From assembly GCF_037975245.1 (NCBI RefSeq), contig NC_092561.1:970501-1034500 (forward strand): a stretch of 64,000 bases of DNA. Reading direction: 5' to 3'. This document shows, one piece after another, positions 10,201-62,490 of the stretch. Each line of letters opens with the position of its first letter. The first letter of the stretch is position 1. Origin of the DNA: Apostichopus japonicus (taxonomy: Eukaryota > Echinodermata > Holothuroidea > Aspidochirotida > Stichopodidae). Both the position numbers and the translations under genes were made by a program. Under the pieces are notes generated by a model. It had not been told where the DNA came from. It did not search any database and saw only the letters and a program-made list of their open reading frames with translations.

Positions 10201-13200
10201 AGAAAACCTAGGAAGTAAACCTACTTTCTTATTGTTTTTCGTAAGCAACAAAGAACTTAACTGTATAGTGGGTAAGGGACATTTATGTAACGACTGATTG
10301 ACTGATGGTTTGATTGATTTATGTCTTTTCAGTTGTTGTCCATCTTGGATGAAGCAGCCATCCTTCTGAACAGATATACACCTTTCGCTGGTAAAGAGTA
10401 CTTACAAGAGAGCGCCCTCAACTGTTTGAAACTGTTAGACCTAGTTTTAGACAAGCAGGACCTATTCATAGATCTCTTACGGAATCAAGGAATGGCCACG
10501 GCGATCCTTGCCACTCCGCTGGATCAGTTATTAATGAGCATCAACACACGATCCAGGAAAGCGGATCACCTTGTCAATATTACACAGTGAGTTTATAATA
10601 ATACATTTAAACCATGTTGATCGTTATCTGTCATTCAGGTTAATGTAGAAGGGTTGATGTCTCCCATCCTTTAGGCAAGCAAACAACCTCCCTCTTCATT
10701 ATAAGAATAGTACAGATCAAAATTTCTTTTCTATTTGTTAAAGAGGAACATAATCTAAGCATTCTGGTGAAATTTGAATTCAATTCCTGTGTACCCATTT
10801 TGAGATATTGACAGTTGAAATTGCCACCTTGCTCGCTTACATTATGCTCCTCTTAAACATATCAAAGAGAAATTTTGACCTGGACTATCCTTTTAAGGTC
10901 ATTATTTGTGTGTATGTGCATGTGTGTGTGTGTCATGCCTTAGCTTCTAAACACTAAGTCAACAAGGATATGATGACTGAACCTTCAGATTAGGTATATG
11001 TGGATCTACCTTCTTGATTACACGAATCTTATTCTTTCCTGTAAAGGTTAAAGGTCATTTGAGGATTGACCAACAGAAAGTCAATTTCTTAAAATCTTGT
11101 AAATGTGCTAAAACTCAAAAAGCACATCCTTGGTTGGAGTTCACACATAGTATTTAGATCTGGTGGTGAGTTCAAGAACCCTATTGATATTGGTGGAGGT
11201 CAAAGGTCAACAGAGTGTGAAGTCTTGTAAACGGGTATTTTTAAGTCTAAAAACTTCTCATAAGTTCTTCACCGGTGCATTAATGAATTGGTTTGCTTGT
11301 TCAGTTTGAATCGCTTTGTCAGATTCATTAAAGTTTTGGCATCCCTCTCATCCTTTTTTCCCTCTCCTTCTCCCTGTCTGTTTTGTTTGTTTAGGCTTGT
11401 AGTCTTCGGCTCATTGCTGCCAGAGCACGCCCTCTATGCACTGCGAGTCCTTTACAAAGTAGTGAGGTCATCCAATATACAGCCCGAAATCGTTAATATG
11501 TTTTCAACGGACAAGGTGAGTTTGTGCAATCGTAAAGGTTAAAATATGTTTGTAATGTATATGTGTGTGTATGATGGAATATATGTTTGTATTATATATG
11601 TGTGTATGCTGGAATATTAGTTTGTAATATATATGTGTGTATGATGGAATATATGTTTGTAATATATATATGTGTGTATGATGGAATATATGTTTGTATT
11701 ATATATGTGTGTATGATGGAATATATGTTTGTAATATATATATGTGTGTATGATGGAATATATGTTTGTATTATATATGTGTGTATGATGGAATATATGT
11801 TTGTAATATATATATGTGTGTATGATGGAATATATGTTTGTAATATATATATGTGTGTATGATGGAATATATGTTTGTATTATATATGTGTGTATGATGG
11901 AATATATGTTTGTATTATATATGTGTGTATGATGGAATATATGTTTGTAATATATATATGTGTGTATGATGGAATATATGTTTGTATTATATATGTGTGT
12001 ATGATGGAATATATGTTTGTAATATATATATGTGTGTATGATGGAATATATGTTTGTAATATATATATATGTGTGTATGATGAAATATATGTTTGTATTA
12101 TATATGTGTGTATGATGGTACCTTGATAACCTTGATAGCTTCACAAACCAAAAGAGCCAAAAAGTCTTCTAAATAATAACAGAAATGACTTCTACTTTTC
12201 CGGTTTTTTGCTCTGCAGTAAACTTAAATCCATCACTTTGTGATTTCATTTGAAGATATGGTCAGATTTCACCGAAATGATACAGATTTGTTAAATATTT
12301 TGTTATGGGATATTTCGTTATGGGATGGGATGTTATGTTTTGTTAAGGTCTGTAACATCCCCCAAACTGAAGTGTTTTGTATGTGTATTATACATCTGTT
12401 AAAGGCATGTCGGAAAATGTTTAGAATACAAAAATCGACGTTCGCTTGTTATACTGTTTCGTTTTCAGTTGTTTTTGGTTAAAAGACCAAAAATGTTAGT
12501 ACCAATGTCAATCGAAGACAAACTTGTGAGAAATATAAAAAAAACAAATTAGGAATATCTCTGACTTTTGGTAGGGCAACTCAAAATTGAGAAATTAATA
12601 AATTTGATAAACTGTCTCATGAAAAGTCACACATTTCTTTGCACTTGAAAGTCTGACCATCGATCTTAATTAAGCTGCTAGAGAAGAGACACCCAGACAT
12701 TTTTTTCTTTGTATTATTATTATTTTTTTACAGGGCTTGTTCAAGAAACTATTGCACGGGTTTGTTGAGTGTTTGGATGCAGATGAATCAGAGAAAGAAG
12801 AGACGGATGACGAGGAGTTATCTCATGAAGGTAAGGAAAACAAAATATATGTGAGAATGTAATCCAACTAAGGCCTGATTCGGGTAGAATAAATTCAGAA
12901 CCGGGTACCCGTTATCATTACCTGGTCAGGTAAGGGGGTCCCCGAAACTCATTTGAAATTCTGACTCTCCCTCTCTATTTCAGGGGAAATCAGTTTGGAG
13001 GAATTACAAAGCAGGCACATCTGCGAGGCTCGTATTACCATCCTGAAACTGCTCATCCATTCTCTCAGTCAGCCTGGACCGAATCTAGCTCACCTCTTCC
13101 TCGGCTACAATCTGAGGAAACCCGTCAGCAAAACGGAAATCCAGGATCCTGGTTAGTTAAGTCTACTGTAGACCTTACCATGTATTACATACACTTTGTG

Positions 13201-16200
13201 TCCTCAACATGTCATCACTGTCTTTACAATCGTTGATTAAATCCTTACCTTTTTTAGGGGAACCAGCGGGACGATGGGGTTGAGGCGTCATGAGAGGGTG
13301 TTTGTGGGAGAATGGGATTCATTTTTGTCCTTAGATTCATAAATATGCAGTAATCAGTCTGTAACACATACTGGCAAACTCATGTATGTGCCAATGATAT
13401 TCGTCTTTCCATGCGCCTTCTGATGTCAGATGGCTGAATATTTCAAACTGATTCAAAACGTGACCAAATTGGTCAAAGATATGACTCCTTTTTATCTTTT
13501 AAAATTGAATTTTTTGAAACTTAACTAGTAAACCTTATTACCTGCATTTATTATGATATGGAAACATAATATTCAGTCATCCAAAAAAAAAAAAACACCT
13601 TTAAAAGTGAGAATATTTCCACATACTATTTTTTTCCCCCGTCTCCTCTTTCATTTTCTCTCTCTCATATCTGTCATGAATTTTTTTTTACATTTCTTTC
13701 TCATAATTTGATAGGTATTTGGGGTTCACCGAGAACCTGCTTGCATGCTATTCTGGGTATTCTGAGCCGTGATCTGTCACCTCACCGTGGTCCATCGACC
13801 ATCGTCACGTCTCCTCAGCTAGCCGAGTTGGCTTACGAGTTGGTCTACATGCTTACAGCCGATAGGGATACTTCTGGTCCTACGATGAGGTACCTCAGGG
13901 GGACCAGGGATTACTTCTACCGACATCTGAGACACGTACCCTTCAACAAACATTCAGAGAGTAAGTTTATCTACCTAGCCTATAATTAAGAGAAAACACA
14001 GAAGGATTTTCAAGAATCTTTCTGTAAATGGAAGCACTAAGACAAGGTTTCATTTCAAAGAATGAAACCTGCGAAATTGCAATCCACAGGGTTGATAATT
14101 TTTTTTTTTTTATTCTGTTTCGCCGAACAGTCGACGTTACTAATCGATAATGCTACATTTAAAATCAGCTTAATTAAAGTAGCAGGTCATGGTTTCAAGC
14201 TTTCAATGACATGTGCTTCTTAATTTGCTTTTTAAAGCTAAGTCAAAACTTTAATTCTTGTCTTACAAAACCAAAAAACACTATAGGTTGACTAGCATAT
14301 TAAAGGTATAATGGAAACCCTTTTCTGTCTATCTTCAGATGAGAGAGAAGATCGCCTGAGGCTAAACCAGCAGGCGTGGTTGCTGAAAGCGGTGGCAGTC
14401 GAGCTGAGGATGACGGCCATTAACAGACAACGTTCACATGTGCAGAGGCTGATCAAGTTGCTCCTGGAGAACACTCCATCACATTTCATTGAAGAAGGTG
14501 AGTGAGCTGGCTCTAAGACTAAAAATATTTTTTAAAAAATCAAAAAAGAAGGAAAAAATAAAAAATATTACTGTTGCTATGTATGGGTCAGAAAATTTTG
14601 TTTGACTTCAAAAAATATTGCCAGATTTTTCTACTAAACTATATTATAAATCAAGGAATTTTCCAGCTGGTGACTAGCTTTAGTCGCTAAATATCCCTTT
14701 GGATGTAATAAATGTTAAAGTCTGAATTTGTTAGGAAGATGTGCATCATGATTATCAGCTACCAGACAGGTAGTTACGATTTAATCTATGTTCGTATCGG
14801 CAGATGACAAGTCCACTCCTAGCCAGTTGCATCATAGCTTGGCCTTGGCTGAACAGAGTGCAATTGGCTTTGATCCCGGACAGGATCAGGATGTGGTTGT
14901 ACAAGGTAAGTGATTTCAACCTCGGTACCAGACGAGGATCAAAAAGGTAATTGGTCTTCAGCTTGATCAGATCAGGTTGTAGTTGTTCGTGGTAAGTTGT
15001 TTTAGATTTGATCCCAGACAAAATATCAAATTTTAGTTGTGCACACATTTACATGATGTCAACTACTTTGATACCAGGATAGGATCAGGTTGCATTTGTT
15101 CAAGATGAGTGGGGTCAGCTTTGATCCCAGAGAGGATCAGTATAATATAAGTGGTTACTTTTGGATATCAGGATGGGATCAGGATAAGTGGTTTTATCCT
15201 TGAACTTATACAACTAGGAGCAGTCAATTGTTATAACCTCATTGAGATCTCTCAGTCAGATTGAGGAATATCTCATTTTTTAGTGAATACCGAATGATCG
15301 GAATTTCAAGAAGCAAAGCCCCCTTACAAACTGCAGCTTTAGTATGCATGGGTAGCATTTATGTTCATGTTGTGTCCTGTTCGCCAGGTCTCCAAATAAG
15401 ACGAAAGATCCTCAGTATCTTGGACTCGATAGACTTAAGCTTAGATGTTCCTGGGAAGTTAGATCTGGAGGTGATCGACAACGCCATGGCGGAGCAGGTG
15501 ATTGCGGGATGCGAAACAAGGAACGAGCAGGGAGTCGTACTCTGTAACTTGAAACTCCTCCACAGAATCCTGACCGCTGAACTGAATAACTTACAAGGGT
15601 CATCAGCTCTAGGTCAAAGGTCAAGACTGGAAGAGGTCAGTTCCTTGAGTTATTTCAGTATTTGTCGTGTTTGGTGTCTGGGTTGTAACTTTAAAGGATT
15701 AGTTGTGGTGATATCGAAGGTGGTGTAACTATGTCCGATAGCCTTGATGGTGTGATGTACTTAGCATCATCACTGGCTTGTTAGCTTCTTAAGGTACCAT
15801 GTCCAAAGTAGAATGTTGAGTGTGCTGCAGCATCATGCAGCCAGGATACAGCATCATGCAGTCAGACTGCATCATCATGTAGCCAGGATGCAGCATCATG
15901 CAGTCAGGCGCACAATCATGCAGCCAGGATGCAGCATCATGCAGTCAGACTGCATCATCATGCAGCCAGGATGCAGCATCATGCAGTCAGACTGCAGCAT
16001 CATGCAGCCAGGATGCAGCATCATGCAGTCAGGCGCACAATCATGCAGCCAGGATGCAGCATCATGCAGTCAGACTGCAGTCAGGCTGCACAAACATGTA
16101 GCCAGGGTACAGCATCATACAGTCAGACTACAGCCAGGATGCAGCCAAGATGCAGCATCATGCAGTCAGACTGCACAATCATGCAGCCAGGGTGTCATGC

Positions 16201-19200
16201 AGTCAGGCTGCACAATCATTTAGCCAGGATGCAGCATCATGCAGTCAGATTGCAGCCAGGATGCAGCATCATGTAGTCAGGCTGCACAATCATGCAGCCA
16301 GGGTGCAGCTTCATGCAGTCAGGCTGCACAATCATGCAGCCAGGGTGCTGCATCATGCAGCCATGCACATTATCTATTGTTTCACGGTTTCATAAACTAT
16401 GTACTTACAGCTCTATGGTGATAATCTCTGTTGTTTGATATATTGATCCATCCTTAGCTGATCAGGATTTTACAGCTGCTGCAGCTTTCACTCTTGACTC
16501 CGTGCCTCTAAGGAGTTCCTGAGAACATTTAATAATCTTAGCCAATCCTAGCCAAACAGGATTGTATTTGTACTACCTTATCACCCATTATAACACTTCC
16601 CACAAAACCCCTTCTGCAGTAGTACTCATTTACCTTCTGAAACCCATCATGTATCTCCCCTTTAGTACCTAACACCATTCAGTAATTCTCACATAACCCC
16701 CTAGGTCACCTCACCTACCCTCTGGGACCTTTAATTTCAGAACAGAGAACACCAGTAATGAATACTAGTAATGAAATGCAGTATATCTATGTAATGTTGG
16801 TGTTTTTTAATTTTTTAGGAAGTGGGCATCATCTTGAGGGCTGCAGTCGAGAGGAACGTAGCCCGCCTCACCCTGAAATCCCGACGTCATGCATTTGATG
16901 CTTGGAGGCAGGTCGTTGAGGTCCTCCTTACTTCCTGCTCAGAGGAAATACTTCCCAATGATGTGAGACAAATGGTGACGATAGAACTACTGCAGGAGTT
17001 ACTGGCAAAGGTAGGAATGTGATGGGTACATCACATGCATCTCATATGCACATATCCTTTTACAGACCAGTACGTTGCCTCAGTATATTAGCGAGCGAAG
17101 ATGCAGACAATTGGGTGGATAATAATTGTTCACTGTCATGAATATTCATGTATTTTGTCACGAATATTATTAATGTATTTTATTTATTTGATAGGTTCTT
17201 GATGAGGATGCCTCTTCAGAGCTGACCTCTCCCGTGGCTGGTAATCTGCTCTCACTTACCACAACATTGAGGCAGTGTGTAGCATATGACCAATCACAGA
17301 TAGTAGCCAAGATGACATCACCTAATTATGCAAGAGTTTCAGACCAGTCCATTCTCTCAGGAAGGGGATCTTTCTCTCAAAAGAATGAAGGCAGTTTAGA
17401 CATACCTATTGTATCCCTTACAGGGATTTTGAGAGATCTACTTAGATTCCTGCTTTTGTCTGGTACGGTTGTTTGCAAATTTCTTTCAAAAACAAAATAT
17501 CTTAACCACATTCCACTTTGCTAGCAGATTGAACGTTTATTATTGATATATTTTGTCATAGGAATGGTTTGATGTATTACTCTCTCTCTCAAATGTGCTG
17601 AGATTAGCCCCACTCCACTCTACTCCTCTCTTATCTGTCCCTTCTCAATATCATTTACCTAACCTGCCAATATTTGTAGCAATTTAGCACCCCTACGGGT
17701 GTAGTTATCCAGTGGTGGGGGAGGGGGGGGGGCATGGTGGTCCTTCTAATTCTGTTGTGTGAAGCTAGTCACTCAAAGTAACTTAAAAAGTAAATCTCTC
17801 TTCGCCGATTTTCGCAGGTGGTTCACATCAGCTGGTCCGTGCAAACTTGTATGGCGCCCTCTTGAATTACCTTCAGATACCTTACCGGCCGCCCAACGCA
17901 TCCAACGTAAGGCGATCTACTATGTTTTTCCAACCTCCTGTGAGCGAAGAGTTTGAGAAAATCATGGCAGCCAGTCTAGCAGTGATTGAAGAGTTTGGGG
18001 AACCCCTCTGTAGCCTCATCTGTCGAGACGCTTGCGAAGGACAAGAAGTCGGAAGGGTAATATTACAAAAATAATTTTTTGTGTGTTTTTGATTTGTTTG
18101 TGTTTCTTTTCTGATCCATTTTTGTTTTTATATTTTTGTTTCGATAAATGTGGTATACTGTTTTGGATTCTAAATTAACATAACAATAGACCTAATTGAC
18201 TTGGCTAGTCAACTTTCATTTCAGTTAATGAAGCAACAAAGTTGGAAAATTTTGAATAGCAGACAAAAATAAATCCATGAAACATGCCACTTTGGTCACC
18301 ATATTTCCTCCTTTGACAGGCGTAAAGTGTGTGTGTTTTATCCCTTAATGCCTTTCCATAAAGTACATGTCAAAACATTGAGAAAATCATCCAACCATGA
18401 GATATATCTAAATTATGACTGTAAGACAATGGTTTGGCTGACGGTCTACATGGGCCTGGAAAGTTTTCAACCCAGATAGCAATGAAACAATGGCTAACAC
18501 ACTAGCACTAGTTGGGCATGCATTCCAGTAGGGCCTTGGACCTGAACACCCTACGGACTTACCATAGGTCCAAGTGACAGCTTGGTACTCTCTGGCCTTT
18601 TGCTCCAACTAATCATTTTCTCTGTCTCTCATAAATTGACAACCCCAGCTGTAAGGCTTATCCCGCCACTGTACTTTAATGCTTATGTCAGTGCTTCACA
18701 GGACAAGGATCACATCCAGTCTGCCCTGTTTTGTTTCAGACACCGTCTCTGTTCAGACTGGTAATATTTTTGGTCTCATTTTGTTTCTAGACGCTGGCAT
18801 TATCTGTGCTCAGCGCCGTGCTATCCAGCGACAAGCGTGGTGGCTGGCTGTCGTTTTTCACATCTCGAGGGTACCTTCGGCATTTCGTGGAGAGCGTTGC
18901 TCAGGCAGACAACGAATTGCAGGAGGCCCTGCAACTGTCACCAGAGCCACTGAGGGCGGTATACATCTATGAATCGACAATGGTGAGATTCCCGTTGCGA
19001 CTCTTTGCCCGGGATACGAATTGTATACTGCAAGTATCCTCCATGGGCATCCATAGAAAGATGAATCTGCCTCTGTTATGTTTTGTTTTTGTTTCAATAA
19101 TGATATAAGTAAAACAGTGCATCCACTGGAGGAGGGGGAGGCGGGGGGCAGAGATTGGAGGTCGTCGGAGGGGTGGTTGTAAGAGAGCACCCTTGTAAGG

Positions 19201-28684: not shown

Positions 28685-29425
28685 ACAGTACACCATATAT
28701 GGTCTTATTGTGCACCATATATGGTCTTATTGTGCACCATATATGGTCTTATTGTGCACCATGTATGGTCTTATTGTGCACCATATATGGTCTTTTTGTG
28801 CACCATACTGATCTTATTGTGCACCATATATGGTCTTATTGTGCAACATATATGGTCTTATTGTGCACCATATATGGTCTTATTGTGCACCATATATGGT
28901 CTTATTGTGCACCGTATATGGTCTAATAGTGCACCATATATGGTCTAATTGTGCACCATATATGGTCTAATAGTGCACCATATATGGTCTTATTGTGCAC
29001 TGATATGGTCTTATTGTGCACCATACATGGTCTTATTGTGCACCATATATGGTCTTATTGTGCACCATATATGGTCTTATGTGCACTGATATGGTCTTAT
29101 TGTACACCATATATGGTCTTATGTGCACCATATATGATCTTATTGTGCACCGTATATGGTCTTATTGTGTGTCATATTTGGTCTCACAGTGCACCTTATG
29201 TAGTCTTGCAGTACACCATTTATGGTTCTTAATCTGTTACATTTTATAAATTACAGTATAACTTGTTCTTAAAGTACACCTTATTATGCGGTCGTATAGT
29301 GCACCGTATATGGTGTTAAAGTCTGTAGTCAAACAGTGCACCATGCATGGTTGCACAGTACACCATATATGGTCTCTGATTGCACCATGTGTGGTCTTAC
29401 AGTGCACCATGTATGGTCTCACATT
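28685..29425. repeat. 22-bp minisatellite carrying CArG-box cores
   Basis: The unit has the palindromic core ACCATATATGGT followed by CTTATTGTGC, so each intact unit contains CCATATATGG, a perfect match to the SRF/MADS consensus CC(A/T)6GG. I count about 14 exact cores plus one CCATTTATGG; others are mutated (CCATGTATGG, CCGTATATGG). The distal part from about 29160 is more degraded. Confidence 0.93.
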
Positions 29426-33744: not shown

Positions 33745-34212
33745 GGGTACACCACCCCCTCCCTTTCCACAACCACTCCGTCCTCCCCACAACCACTCCC
33801 CACAACCACTCCCTCCTCCCCACAACCACTCCCTCCTCCCCATAGCCACTCCCTCCTCCCCATAGCCACTCCCTCCTCCCCACAACCACTCCCTCCTCCC
33901 CATAACCACTCCCTCCTCTCCATAACCACTCCCTCCTCCCCATAACCACTCCCTCCTCTCCATAACCACTCCCTCCTCCCGATAACCACTCCCTCCTCCC
34001 CACAACCACTCCCTCCCCACAACCACTCCCTCCTCTCATAACCACTCCCTCCTCCCCACAACCACTCCCTCCTTCCCACAACCACTCCCTCCTCCCCATA
34101 ACCACTCTCTCCTCCCCATAACCACTCCCTCCTCCGCACAACCACTCCCTCCTCCCCATAACCACTCCCTCCTCCCCATAACCACTCCCTCCTCCCCACA
34201 ACCACTCTCTCA
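33745..34212. repeat. 20-bp C-rich minisatellite, about 23 copies
   Basis: Unit CCCTCCTCCCCATAACCACT with CATAGCC and CACAACC variants. Because 20 is not a multiple of three, the same GGGSGYGEE-like peptide appears in all minus frames, a sign that these ORFs are artefacts. Confidence 0.97.
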
Positions 34213-38248: not shown

Positions 38249-40252
38249 CTAGAAGAAACAGAAAAACAGTTAGCAGAACTGATACTTTTAAACTTAAGGC
38301 CAACTGCCAGGCAAATTTTGATTCCAAAAGATGTAATCAGTTTCATAAGATCTTACAGTAACTTTTAACACCAAATTATTTCGGTCCATTTTCTATGAAA
38401 AATGTCACGCATCAACAAAATAGGCATACATCGATTTCATATTGATAAACAAAAGGGAATAACCGCAAAGATAAAAAGGATTTTTAATACATTAGCAGAC
38501 ATTGAGAAGACAATCGCTATAATAAATTCTTCTTTTAAGGGGTTTTTATCCTTTGTAGAATCATACCGTGGTGCGTGGAGGACCGGTCTCCCTTATATCT
38601 TCCGAATTAATGTATTCAATAGTAGGAGATTCGCTGCGTTCCATTATCGGAGTTGAGGCGTTTGCTCTGCTGGTCGGAGACACCGGGCTTGTCGGTGCCA
38701 CGGACGTCGAAGAGGACGAGTTACGGCCGGCGATTCTTCCGTTGGTGGAGATTAAATGCGTCATAGACGTTGAATGGTTGTGAGGCAGCTGTGTCTGCAG
38801 TGTGTGATTCTGCTGTTGCTGCTGTGAAGGTCCAGCATTGCTAGTGCTAGGAGTGTCGCCTTCGTTTGTGTTCAACTTGACCAGATCAAAAAGTTGTTTT
38901 GCATTCTTGCACTTGAAAGCGTATATCCCTGCAATTTGAGAAGATAATATTGAAGATTATGTATCTATCAATAGTATAGACCCAACGTGACGTACTCCAC
39001 ACATCATAGGTAATGGTTGGAACTGAAGGAGGGAGTGAGGAGGGGGTGGGGGGAAGGGGAGGGTTGTGGTCAATGAGAGCATAAATGTCTGTAGTCTATG
39101 TCAAATCGTGTAGCAGACAGGCAAGCTGGGGAATATTGCCAACATAATCAACACCCTCAACTTCACTTTAGCTATTTACCCTATTTCTTACCTCAACCAG
39201 TGTATGGCAACTTGAATAAACAATGTTTATACCTTAACTGGTGGTGGCACCTTGCAATGGCTCCTTATGTCCTCAACTACAATGTTGGCAAATTTATCAC
39301 AGCTCTTACGTGTAATTCCTATCAACCTAGGAAGTTAGCACTGTAGTAAGGTCCTTACAATCTTACATGGGCTTTACATGGACTATCAGTGGCACCTTGA
39401 TTACAACAGTAAGATTCAAACCGATGAAACCCAAGTGCGAAACAAATGTCCTAGACACTTTGTGTGGTAGATTGAGAAAGGAAGGTCATTGATTGGAGGG
39501 GTCTGGTCATAGAAGGCTGTGTAATAATACCAGTTCATTCTAGACATGGTGAGCGCATGCTGAGGTTGTGAAGAGACAGGTAAGCGAGGTGCAGGTTAAT
39601 AAATTTCTTACTGGTGTTGGCTTGTCTTTAGCTATTCATATTACAATTCTGCATGGGTAGTTATCTTTGTTCTTTACCTGGACTGGTAACTATTGGCATT
39701 AGGCTGAGTTATGTTCAAACCTGGTCTGTCGGTACCCTTGCATGGAAGGACATTTTTACCTGAAGTGGAAGCACCTTTCTTTAGATTCATTGTACCCAAA
39801 CCTGGACTGATGACAGCCTTTACATTAGTTCTTCATACTTGTCTTACTTGGACCAGTGACACTGTACTTCTCACAATCTATTTTCAAACCTTTACACGCG
39901 GCACCCTGCATCGAACAATTTAGATTATTACCTGCATCTGTGGTATGTACCTTGTATTGAGTACATTTACTACAGTACTATATGTGCACTTACCTGGACC
40001 AGTGGCACAACTTCTGCCGCTCTCAAATGAAAACAAGCCTGTGTCGAAACCATAGCGACGGAGGGACTTGAGTGGCCAACGGATGGGGTTGCCGTTCTTC
40101 TGATGGAGGACCAACTCCGTCCTGTTCACCTCTATCAGTCCTCTCCAGATGATCTCTCCCTGTTCGTTAATGTTCTTCACTTTAAACATATTTGTCGCCA
40201 GTTTGGACTTGACCCTTCCCGGGAGAGGACTGCACTGTATCTGATTGCCCAT
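37253..40252 (-). CDS. FRS2: FRS2-type FGF receptor substrate docking protein, 3 coding exons
   Basis: FRS2 is a membrane-anchored adaptor that links FGF and Trk receptors to GRB2/SOS and SHP2. Joining 40252-39994, 38928-38567 and 38248-37253 gives 538 residues; vertebrate FRS2 is about 500. The start MGNQIQC has Gly2 for N-myristoylation and a nearby Cys7 for possible palmitoylation. The PTB domain spans about residues 22-105 (RRYGFDTGLFSFESGRSC, GIYAFKCKNAKQLFDL). The rest is disordered and Ser/Pro-rich with SP/TP sites. YxN motifs (GRB2 SH2 type) are Y192 (YINS), Y342 (YVNL) and Y371 (YTNL). LNY motifs at Y237 (LNYVHL) and Y454 (LNYIQV) resemble the vertebrate SHP2 site, and Y501 is in VYAVID. 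The C-terminus SSRRTRHD parallels vertebrate TSRKTRHN. FRS2 and FRS3 arose in vertebrates, so this is probably the single pro-ortholog. Confidence 0.93.
38567..38928 (-). CDS. FRS2: FRS2 second coding exon
   Basis: Acceptor attgcag, donor GTATGA. Residues 87-207, entering in phase 1 and leaving in phase 0. It completes the PTB domain (GIYAFKCKNAKQLFDLVKL), then becomes Gln/Ser/Thr-rich with a Q5 run, SPVSP and the YINS motif at Y192. Confidence 0.92.
39187..40008 (-). repeat. array of copies of FRS2 exon end plus splice donor
   Basis: The true junction on the minus strand, GTGCCACTGGTCCAG/GTAAGT (40008-39988), recurs downstream in the same orientation: GTGTCACTGGTCCAAGTAAG (39862-39843), GTGCTTCCACTTCAGGTAAA (39774-39755), GTTACCAGTCCAGGTAAA (39690-39673), GGTGCCACTGATAGTCCATG (39396-39377), GTGCCACCACCAGTTAAGGT (near 39250-39231) and GCCATACACTGGTTGAGGTA (39208-39189). 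A different dispersed repeat (39435-39600) interrupts it. Confidence 0.65.
39435..39600 (+). repeat. dispersed repeat family X, copy 1
   Basis: Shares TCCTAGACACTTTGTGTGGT, GGTCATTGATTGGAGGGGTC, CAGTTCATTCTAGACATGGT and AGACAGGTAAG with 49090-49240. Its sequence after TCTAGACAT also resembles the tandem units at 49620-49840. Confidence 0.65.
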
Positions 40253-61764: not shown

Positions 61765-62490
61765 TCGTTCTAGCATCCCTCCTCACAGACTTATCCCTCC
61801 TCACGAGCATATCCCTCCTCACAGACAAAGCTTTCCTTATAAGCATATCCCTCATCATGGACATATCCCTCCTCATAGGCATATCCCTCCTCATGGACAT
61901 ATCCCTCCTCATAGGCATATCCCTCCTCACAAACAAAGCTTTTCTTATAAGCAAATCCCTCCTCACGGACATACCCCTCCTCATAGGGATATCCCTTCTC
62001 ACGGACATATCCCTCCTCATAGGCATATCCCTCCTCACGGACAGATCCCTTGTCACTGATATATCACTCGTCACGGACATAGCCCTCCTTATAAGCATTT
62101 CTCTCCTCACAGATATCTATCCCTCCTCATAGGCATATCCCTCCTCACGGACATATCCCCCCTCACAGACATATCCCTCCTCATAGACATAGCCTTCCTT
62201 ATAAGCATATCTCTCCTCACGGATATCCTTCCTCACTGACATATCCCTCCTCACTGGCATATCCCTCCTCACGGATATATCCCTCCTCACTGGCATATCC
62301 CTCCTCACTGGCATATCCCACCTCGCGGACATATCCCTCCTCGCGGACATATCCCTCCTCACTGACATATCCCTCATTATGGACATATCCCTCCTTATAG
62401 ACATCCTTCCTAAGGCACATATCCTACTTACGAACATATTCCTTCTTATGGACATGTCCCTCCTTACAGGCATATCCCTCAGAGACATCC
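61765..62490. repeat. 18-bp minisatellite, about 40 copies
   Basis: Unit CATATCCCTCCTCACGGA with ATAGG, CTGG and CAGA variants. Because 18 is a multiple of three, hexapeptide frames stay open on both strands (for example RRDMSV and LLTDIS). Higher-order patterns alternate CTCATAGG and CTCACGGA units. Confidence 0.95.

Follow-up and report, generated by a model that had tools for sequence, protein, structure and literature searches.

A degenerate repeat that appears to span the first coding exon–intron boundary of an FRS2-like gene in Apostichopus japonicus

The FRS2-like gene and its first coding junction

We analysed a 64,000-nucleotide stretch of the Apostichopus japonicus genome (contig NC_092561.1, positions 970,501 to 1,034,500; hereafter the window), in which an FRS2/FRS3-like gene on the minus strand carries degenerate copies of the end of its first coding exon, together with the splice donor, in the intron that follows. 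The junction is laid out as follows; here as everywhere, donors are predicted from sequence and their strength is scored from consensus frequencies.

39994 to 40252, minus strand: first coding exon of the FRS2/FRS3-like gene, ATG start by our own reading, with PTB-domain and FRS3/FRS2 structure matches
39988 to 39993, minus strand: authentic splice donor GTAAGT, donor score 12.6
38929 to 39993, minus strand: intron bearing the degenerate copies, from the sequence and a junction check (analysed as 38930-39993, one base short)

By its matches (IRS-type PTB in Pfam; FRS3 and FRS2 in PDB) the exon codes for a PTB domain of FRS2/FRS3 type, and its end reads GTGCCACTGGTCCAG/GTAAGT at 40008-39988 on the minus strand. 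Once translated and joined at 39994/38928, exons 1 and 2 give a gap-free alignment to FRS3 over the junction (E 2.7e-25), with the exon-end protein SGRSCATGPGIYAFKC opposite SGRRCQTGQGIFAFKC; on this alignment, the exon end is conserved coding sequence.

Copies of the junction in the intron

An earlier note on this DNA had claimed that the junction recurs about six times in the 800 bases downstream. As a literal statement this does not hold, since the exact 21-base junction occurs once in the window, and a search allowing up to 3 mismatches returns only the junction itself and 39862-39842 (3 mismatches), although none of 100 shuffles gave two such matches. The count of six survives as degenerate copies with a GT donor. 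A gapped search with 30 exon and 10 intron bases of the junction as probe listed eight matches, seven of which extend to the donor: 39871-39843, 39398-39374, 39213-39187 (position 39187 being the end of this degenerate copy), 39777-39756, 39943-39928 (16 nt), 39683-39674 (10 nt only) and 39253-39233 (which reads GTTAAG). Each of the six best gapped copies outscores all 200 shuffles at the same rank, and a second probe places six GT-donor copies at intron +62, +146, +234, +316, +616 and +802. The copies group as follows.

39650 to 39954, minus strand: core array with seven donor-like GTs at 39931, 39889, 39847, 39801, 39759, 39720 and 39677, spaced 39-46
39800 to 39871, minus strand: best copy, score 48, with about 22 exon-side and 45 intron-side bases aligned to the exon end
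39356 to 39398, minus strand: outlying copy with GTGCCACTGATAGTCCATGTAA, scores 27.5 and 35.5 with two probes
39167 to 39256, minus strand: outlying copy pair, about 39253-39233 and 39213-39167, scores 19/25 and 19/28 with two probes

The alignment of the best copy covers about 72 nt across the exon end and the intron start; with the shorter probe it scores 36.5, against a shuffle mean of 19.8. When the exon part is taken alone, its AG omitted, the summed score still exceeds 200 of 200 shuffles, with ranks 1, 2, 5 and 6 individually at P<0.05 and ranks 3 and 4 at 0.33 and 0.125. The longer copies thus align beyond the donor into exon sequence and go beyond the generic donor consensus, a point on which the note had made its reading depend, and the profile ranking described below agrees. 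Three interior-exon control probes gave summed P values of 0.15, 0.505 and 0.195.

Periodicity and repeat unit

Over its first 340 nt the intron matches itself at lags 36-50 with a score of 47 and at lags 78-96 with one of 49, where the highest of 100 shuffles reached 34 in both cases; there is no excess at lags 20-34 or 52-70, and lags 100-120 are borderline (P 0.08). The last third of the intron shows the shorter period again (37 at lags 36-50 against a maximum of 28 in 100 shuffles). A profile built from the seven copies, compared with 127 exon ends, ranks the FRS2 exon first at 16 and at 20 nt, also when the last 3 bases are left out. Since the rank is lower at 24 nt, about 16-20 of the last exon bases lie within the unit, which is about 42 nt long and spans the end of exon 1 and the start of the intron.

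Other introns in the window

Among 22 donors in the window, FRS2 reaches z 6.9, and it beats 13 of 13 other introns; in a second run, none of 60 other introns gave an equal match. The note had held that two neighbouring genes carry donor-spanning copies. For the neighbour we examined, NUP205 (identity confirmed against solved structures), this we could not uphold. None of the 21 NUP205 donors, chosen by consensus inside homologous frames, stands out (maximum z 2.1, 2.3 in a second run). A further scan, which took in the exons lacking a clear donor and used approximate ends (27 exons, both sides if the flank was at least 80 nt), flagged no donor. One acceptor was, at 18791, through a T-rich alignment with a three-hit z of 3.1. 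The one donor-containing array found in a NUP205 intron, a degenerate repeat at about 14856-15143 with GGTAAGT or GATGAGT in three of its units, was rejected as a second-gene case: the gene's own exon ranks only 35 to 92 of 127 against it. The window is rich in minisatellites, with long tandem arrays at 11544-12118, 28691-29231, 33751-34211 and 61775-62480 (repeating every 18 to 36 nt or so).

Weighing the FRS2 array

We consider it quite probable that the FRS2 array is an eroded minisatellite with a unit of about 42 nt, spanning the end of coding exon 1 and the start of the intron, that arose by ordinary tandem duplication. The boundary would have been copied into the intron by slippage, unequal exchange or repair, after which the intron copies presumably drifted while selection preserved the exon and its donor. 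Because the exon end is conserved protein, copying more likely ran from exon to intron.

Several results weigh against this reading. Ungapped exon-only scans of the intron gave no significance, with probes that were blunt and set 2 bases too far upstream. Tandem Repeats Finder (TRF) at score 30 did not call the core array, which is too decayed for so blunt a setting. A shifted interior-exon control reached z 3.7 (2.1 in a second run), its score coming mainly from one match, 39751-39716. In the middle third there is no clear 36-50 period, the last third of the intron matches itself at 100-120 too, and two of the six spacings (62 and 186) do not fit a 42-nt unit. At 24 exon nt the profile places FRS2 only second or third of 127, and some copies joined that profile through their similarity, which makes it partly non-independent. 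Finally, the FRS2 evidence is the sequence of one assembly.

Could the whole pattern be chance, with consensus donors and low-level similarity over-read by eye? The single exact junction, the single site within 3 mismatches, the silence of TRF and the non-significant ungapped scans are what chance would give, but six top copies that each exceed every shuffle at their own rank, the lack of an equal match in the 13 and 60 other introns and the periodicity all run against it, and we regard this explanation as very improbable.

Would any of the copies be used? None of the six mapped copies has a predicted donor equal to the authentic site. Read-through meets its first in-frame stop at intron +71, and by our own arithmetic splicing at the +62 copy would shift the frame. 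A transcript spliced at a copy would thus be put out of frame or run into a stop codon, and the site chosen is most likely the first donor, which is also the strongest. A selected regulatory element, in which decoy donors bind U1 or tune FRS2 splicing, would account for GTAA being kept in all six mapped copies. All six are nevertheless predicted to be weaker than the authentic donor, the discovery method favours copies with a kept donor, and in the arrays described next the share of listed copies at authentic predicted strength runs from 0 of 14 up to 14 of 14; decoy selection thus strikes us as quite unlikely.

Donor-spanning arrays elsewhere in the genome

We extended the comparison to 127 donors of the 671.6-Mb assembly (35 contigs): 105 from CCT and myosin genes (PF00118, PF00063; 24 gene clusters), that of FRS2 and 21 of NUP205. 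The source matches listed numbered 57 for PF00118 and at least 70 for PF00063, where 65 of 186 candidates were scored; we set aside 12 PF00118 and 7 PF00063 rows at our own discretion, as single-exon, terminal, weak or long-frame, and of 108 donor slices fetched, L045, L083 and L086 were dropped for weak donor calls, leaving 105. Pairs were scored as the sum of the three best hits, with a threshold of z>5 and re-paired exons and introns as control.

Real pairs passed in 10 of 127 cases and interior-exon controls in 3 of 127, against 1.04% of re-paired pairs, a control inflated by slice overlap (L075 contains the L099 array). This small version of the genome-wide scan that the note had proposed came out in the direction it expected. 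The ten junctions are FRS2, six clear arrays and three that were rejected as donor arrays: L072 (diverged exon copies), L021 (the copy ends before the donor) and L071 (a single duplication). Without these three, 7 of 127 junctions remain at z>5; L018 is weak, at z 3.4. Downstream of L072 (G000 C10:9069310-9070510), a myosin exon end is present as two diverged copies, possibly alternative exons.

Six of the 105 sampled donors are followed by at least 4 copies.

L006: unit 46 nt
L010: unit 31 nt, G000 C17, about 160-162 kb
L032: unit 69/73 nt, only 2 exon bases, G000 C17, about 160-162 kb
L050: unit 53 nt, G000 C4, about 23.98-23.997 Mb
L099: unit 163 nt, G000 C4, about 23.98-23.997 Mb
L108: unit 62/28 nt, G000 C4, about 23.98-23.997 Mb

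These arrays are better preserved than that of FRS2 and have the same anatomy. At L099, the donor and about 89 bases of the exon before it are repeated four times almost unaltered, and all four clear copies share a base that the exon lacks. Among the copies listed, which include weak ones (and may number at least 14 where 14 are listed), the predicted donor has authentic strength in 10 of 13 at L006, 14 of 14 at L050, 12 of 13 at L032 and 0 of 14 at L010. The FRS2 and L006 stretches are not dispersed satellites, because each has one genome match in a search that skips simple and very common words. This small sample suggests that donor-spanning arrays are fairly common in the A. japonicus genome, and they may cluster by gene. 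L010 and L032 are different donor-spanning arrays in two introns of one gene, and L050, L108 and L099 follow three of the six sampled donors of another; the first gene is TCP1-like and the second a myosin.

Is the donor a special target?

The note had raised the possibility of a recurrent local duplication process that lengthens introns and supplies cryptic donors. A donor-directed process, linked for example to transcription at 5' splice sites, would repeatedly copy junctions and lengthen introns. The excess of real over re-paired pairs is in its favour, as is the clustering by gene (three of six sampled donors in the myosin, two of six in the TCP1-like gene; same-gene pairs P 0.003, in a test picked post hoc). 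We examined it with a positional test, the single best hit within 500 nt at z>5, using eight intronic offsets per donor. Of the 127 donors, 7 passed (L006, L010, L021, L071, L099, L108 and FRS2), as did 3 of 127 exon probes and 128 of 1016 intronic ones. The intronic count is flat from +30 to +380, with 14 to 18 of 127 at each of the eight offsets and no increase toward the donor across the 127 introns; strongly repeated probes, one or more per intron, occur in 35 of 127 introns. Because intronic probes are repeated more often than donors, there is no sign of donor targeting. Donors rank between exon and intron, as generic tandem duplication combined with coding selection would be expected to produce. 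Neither step is significant alone (donor versus nearest intron probe, 7 versus 14 of 127, P 0.17; donor versus exon, P 0.33), which counts against our preferred explanation by ordinary duplication.

Acceptors bear on the same issue. Of 40 random slices, 35 contained an open-frame acceptor and were kept. None of these 35 passed the single-hit test, which would suit a donor-directed process, but the difference from donors is not significant (P 0.35). No intron probe placed 60 nt from an acceptor was repeated (0 of 35), compared with 14 of 127 at donor +30 (P 0.04), which again would suit such a process. The L122 acceptor (G000 C13:10611038-10612237) has several partial upstream copies (single-hit 4.8, three-hit z 6.9), the sole such case of 35, and speaks against a restriction to donors. 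With intron interiors more repeated than the junctions, we consider a donor-directed process unlikely. Ordinary tandem duplication remains our preferred account, and the donor arrays are probably a by-product of the dense intronic minisatellites of this genome rather than of a donor-seeking mechanism.

Relation to known repeat systems

The note knew of no described class of this kind. Such a class has been described in lancelets as "mirages", reported or cited in the Adh3, globin, troponin C and PGBD5 genes (PMC3087553, PMC3902484), with units of 10-72 bp in Adh3 and 150-160 bp in globins (PMC3087553/PMC3902484), and proposed as a route to intron gain (PMC3087553). As far as these sources describe the amphioxus cases (Adh3; the globins BflGb6 and BflGb9; PGBD5), FRS2 shares their head-to-tail, boundary-spanning unit in degenerate form, and the six cleaner arrays share it as a boundary-spanning tandem unit. 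The unit lengths, about 42 nt in FRS2 and 31 to 163 nt in the others, are in keeping with those reported; the splice signals found in many mirage units recur in FRS2 as the GT of six mapped copies; and the non-exon base common to the L099 copies resembles the homogenisation within mirage clusters. Mirages are also marked by normal mRNA splicing in spite of the array and by lengths that vary between alleles or cells; the likeness drawn here is one of sequence. The present cases differ in that the host is an echinoderm and the FRS2 array is far more eroded. The FRS2 array looks like an old, eroded case of the repeat type described in lancelets.

The model of intron gain by tandem duplication of AGGT (Rogers, cited in PMC3087553) resembles the FRS2 case, in the outline given there, in its local duplication carrying AG/GT, but the FRS2 copies sit inside an intron. 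Ordinary intronic minisatellites, also abundant in our sample, differ from the FRS2 array, which includes coding bases and a donor. A C. elegans intronic minisatellite has been linked to alternative splicing (PMC4039745), and the relevant passages of that paper do not mention boundary copies. Among the matches listed in our literature searches (titles and the starts of abstracts, with subscription journals thinly covered), there was no echinoderm report of such arrays; as far as these limited searches reach, the host is new for junction copying.

Additional observations

In mitochondrial COX1, AAA stands at a conserved Asn, ATA at a conserved Ile, AGA reads as Ser and TGA as Trp, in line with NCBI table 9 (the echinoderm/flatworm code). 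The mitochondrial gene order, with genes named by eye, is cox1-nad4L-cox2-atp6-cox3-nad3-nad4-nad5-nad6(-)-cob, with nad1 and nad2 on the plus strand, which fits echinoids and holothuroids rather than asteroids. At G000 C29:14745-31219 there are COX1-like pieces with in-frame TGA, perhaps nuclear mitochondrial copies or a misplaced mitochondrial stretch.

Implications

By itself, the eroded FRS2 array is of modest weight. More broadly, an echinoderm too shows the junction copying known from lancelets, and there it can be counted, at six clear arrays per 105 sampled donors; its frequency in so small a sample merits a genome-wide count. L006, L050 and L032, in each of which at least 10 copies have donors of equal predicted strength, offer natural tests of splice-site choice by the spliceosome. 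A wider view, which we offer tentatively and hold to be possible though doubtful, is that boundary-spanning minisatellites are common in deuterostomes with minisatellite-rich introns, that several per cent of the donors of this echinoderm are trailed by numerous copies of their own sequence, some of them predicted to be just as strong, and that cells would accordingly need a positional, first-donor rule; alternative 5' splice sites and new introns could then arise from such arrays.
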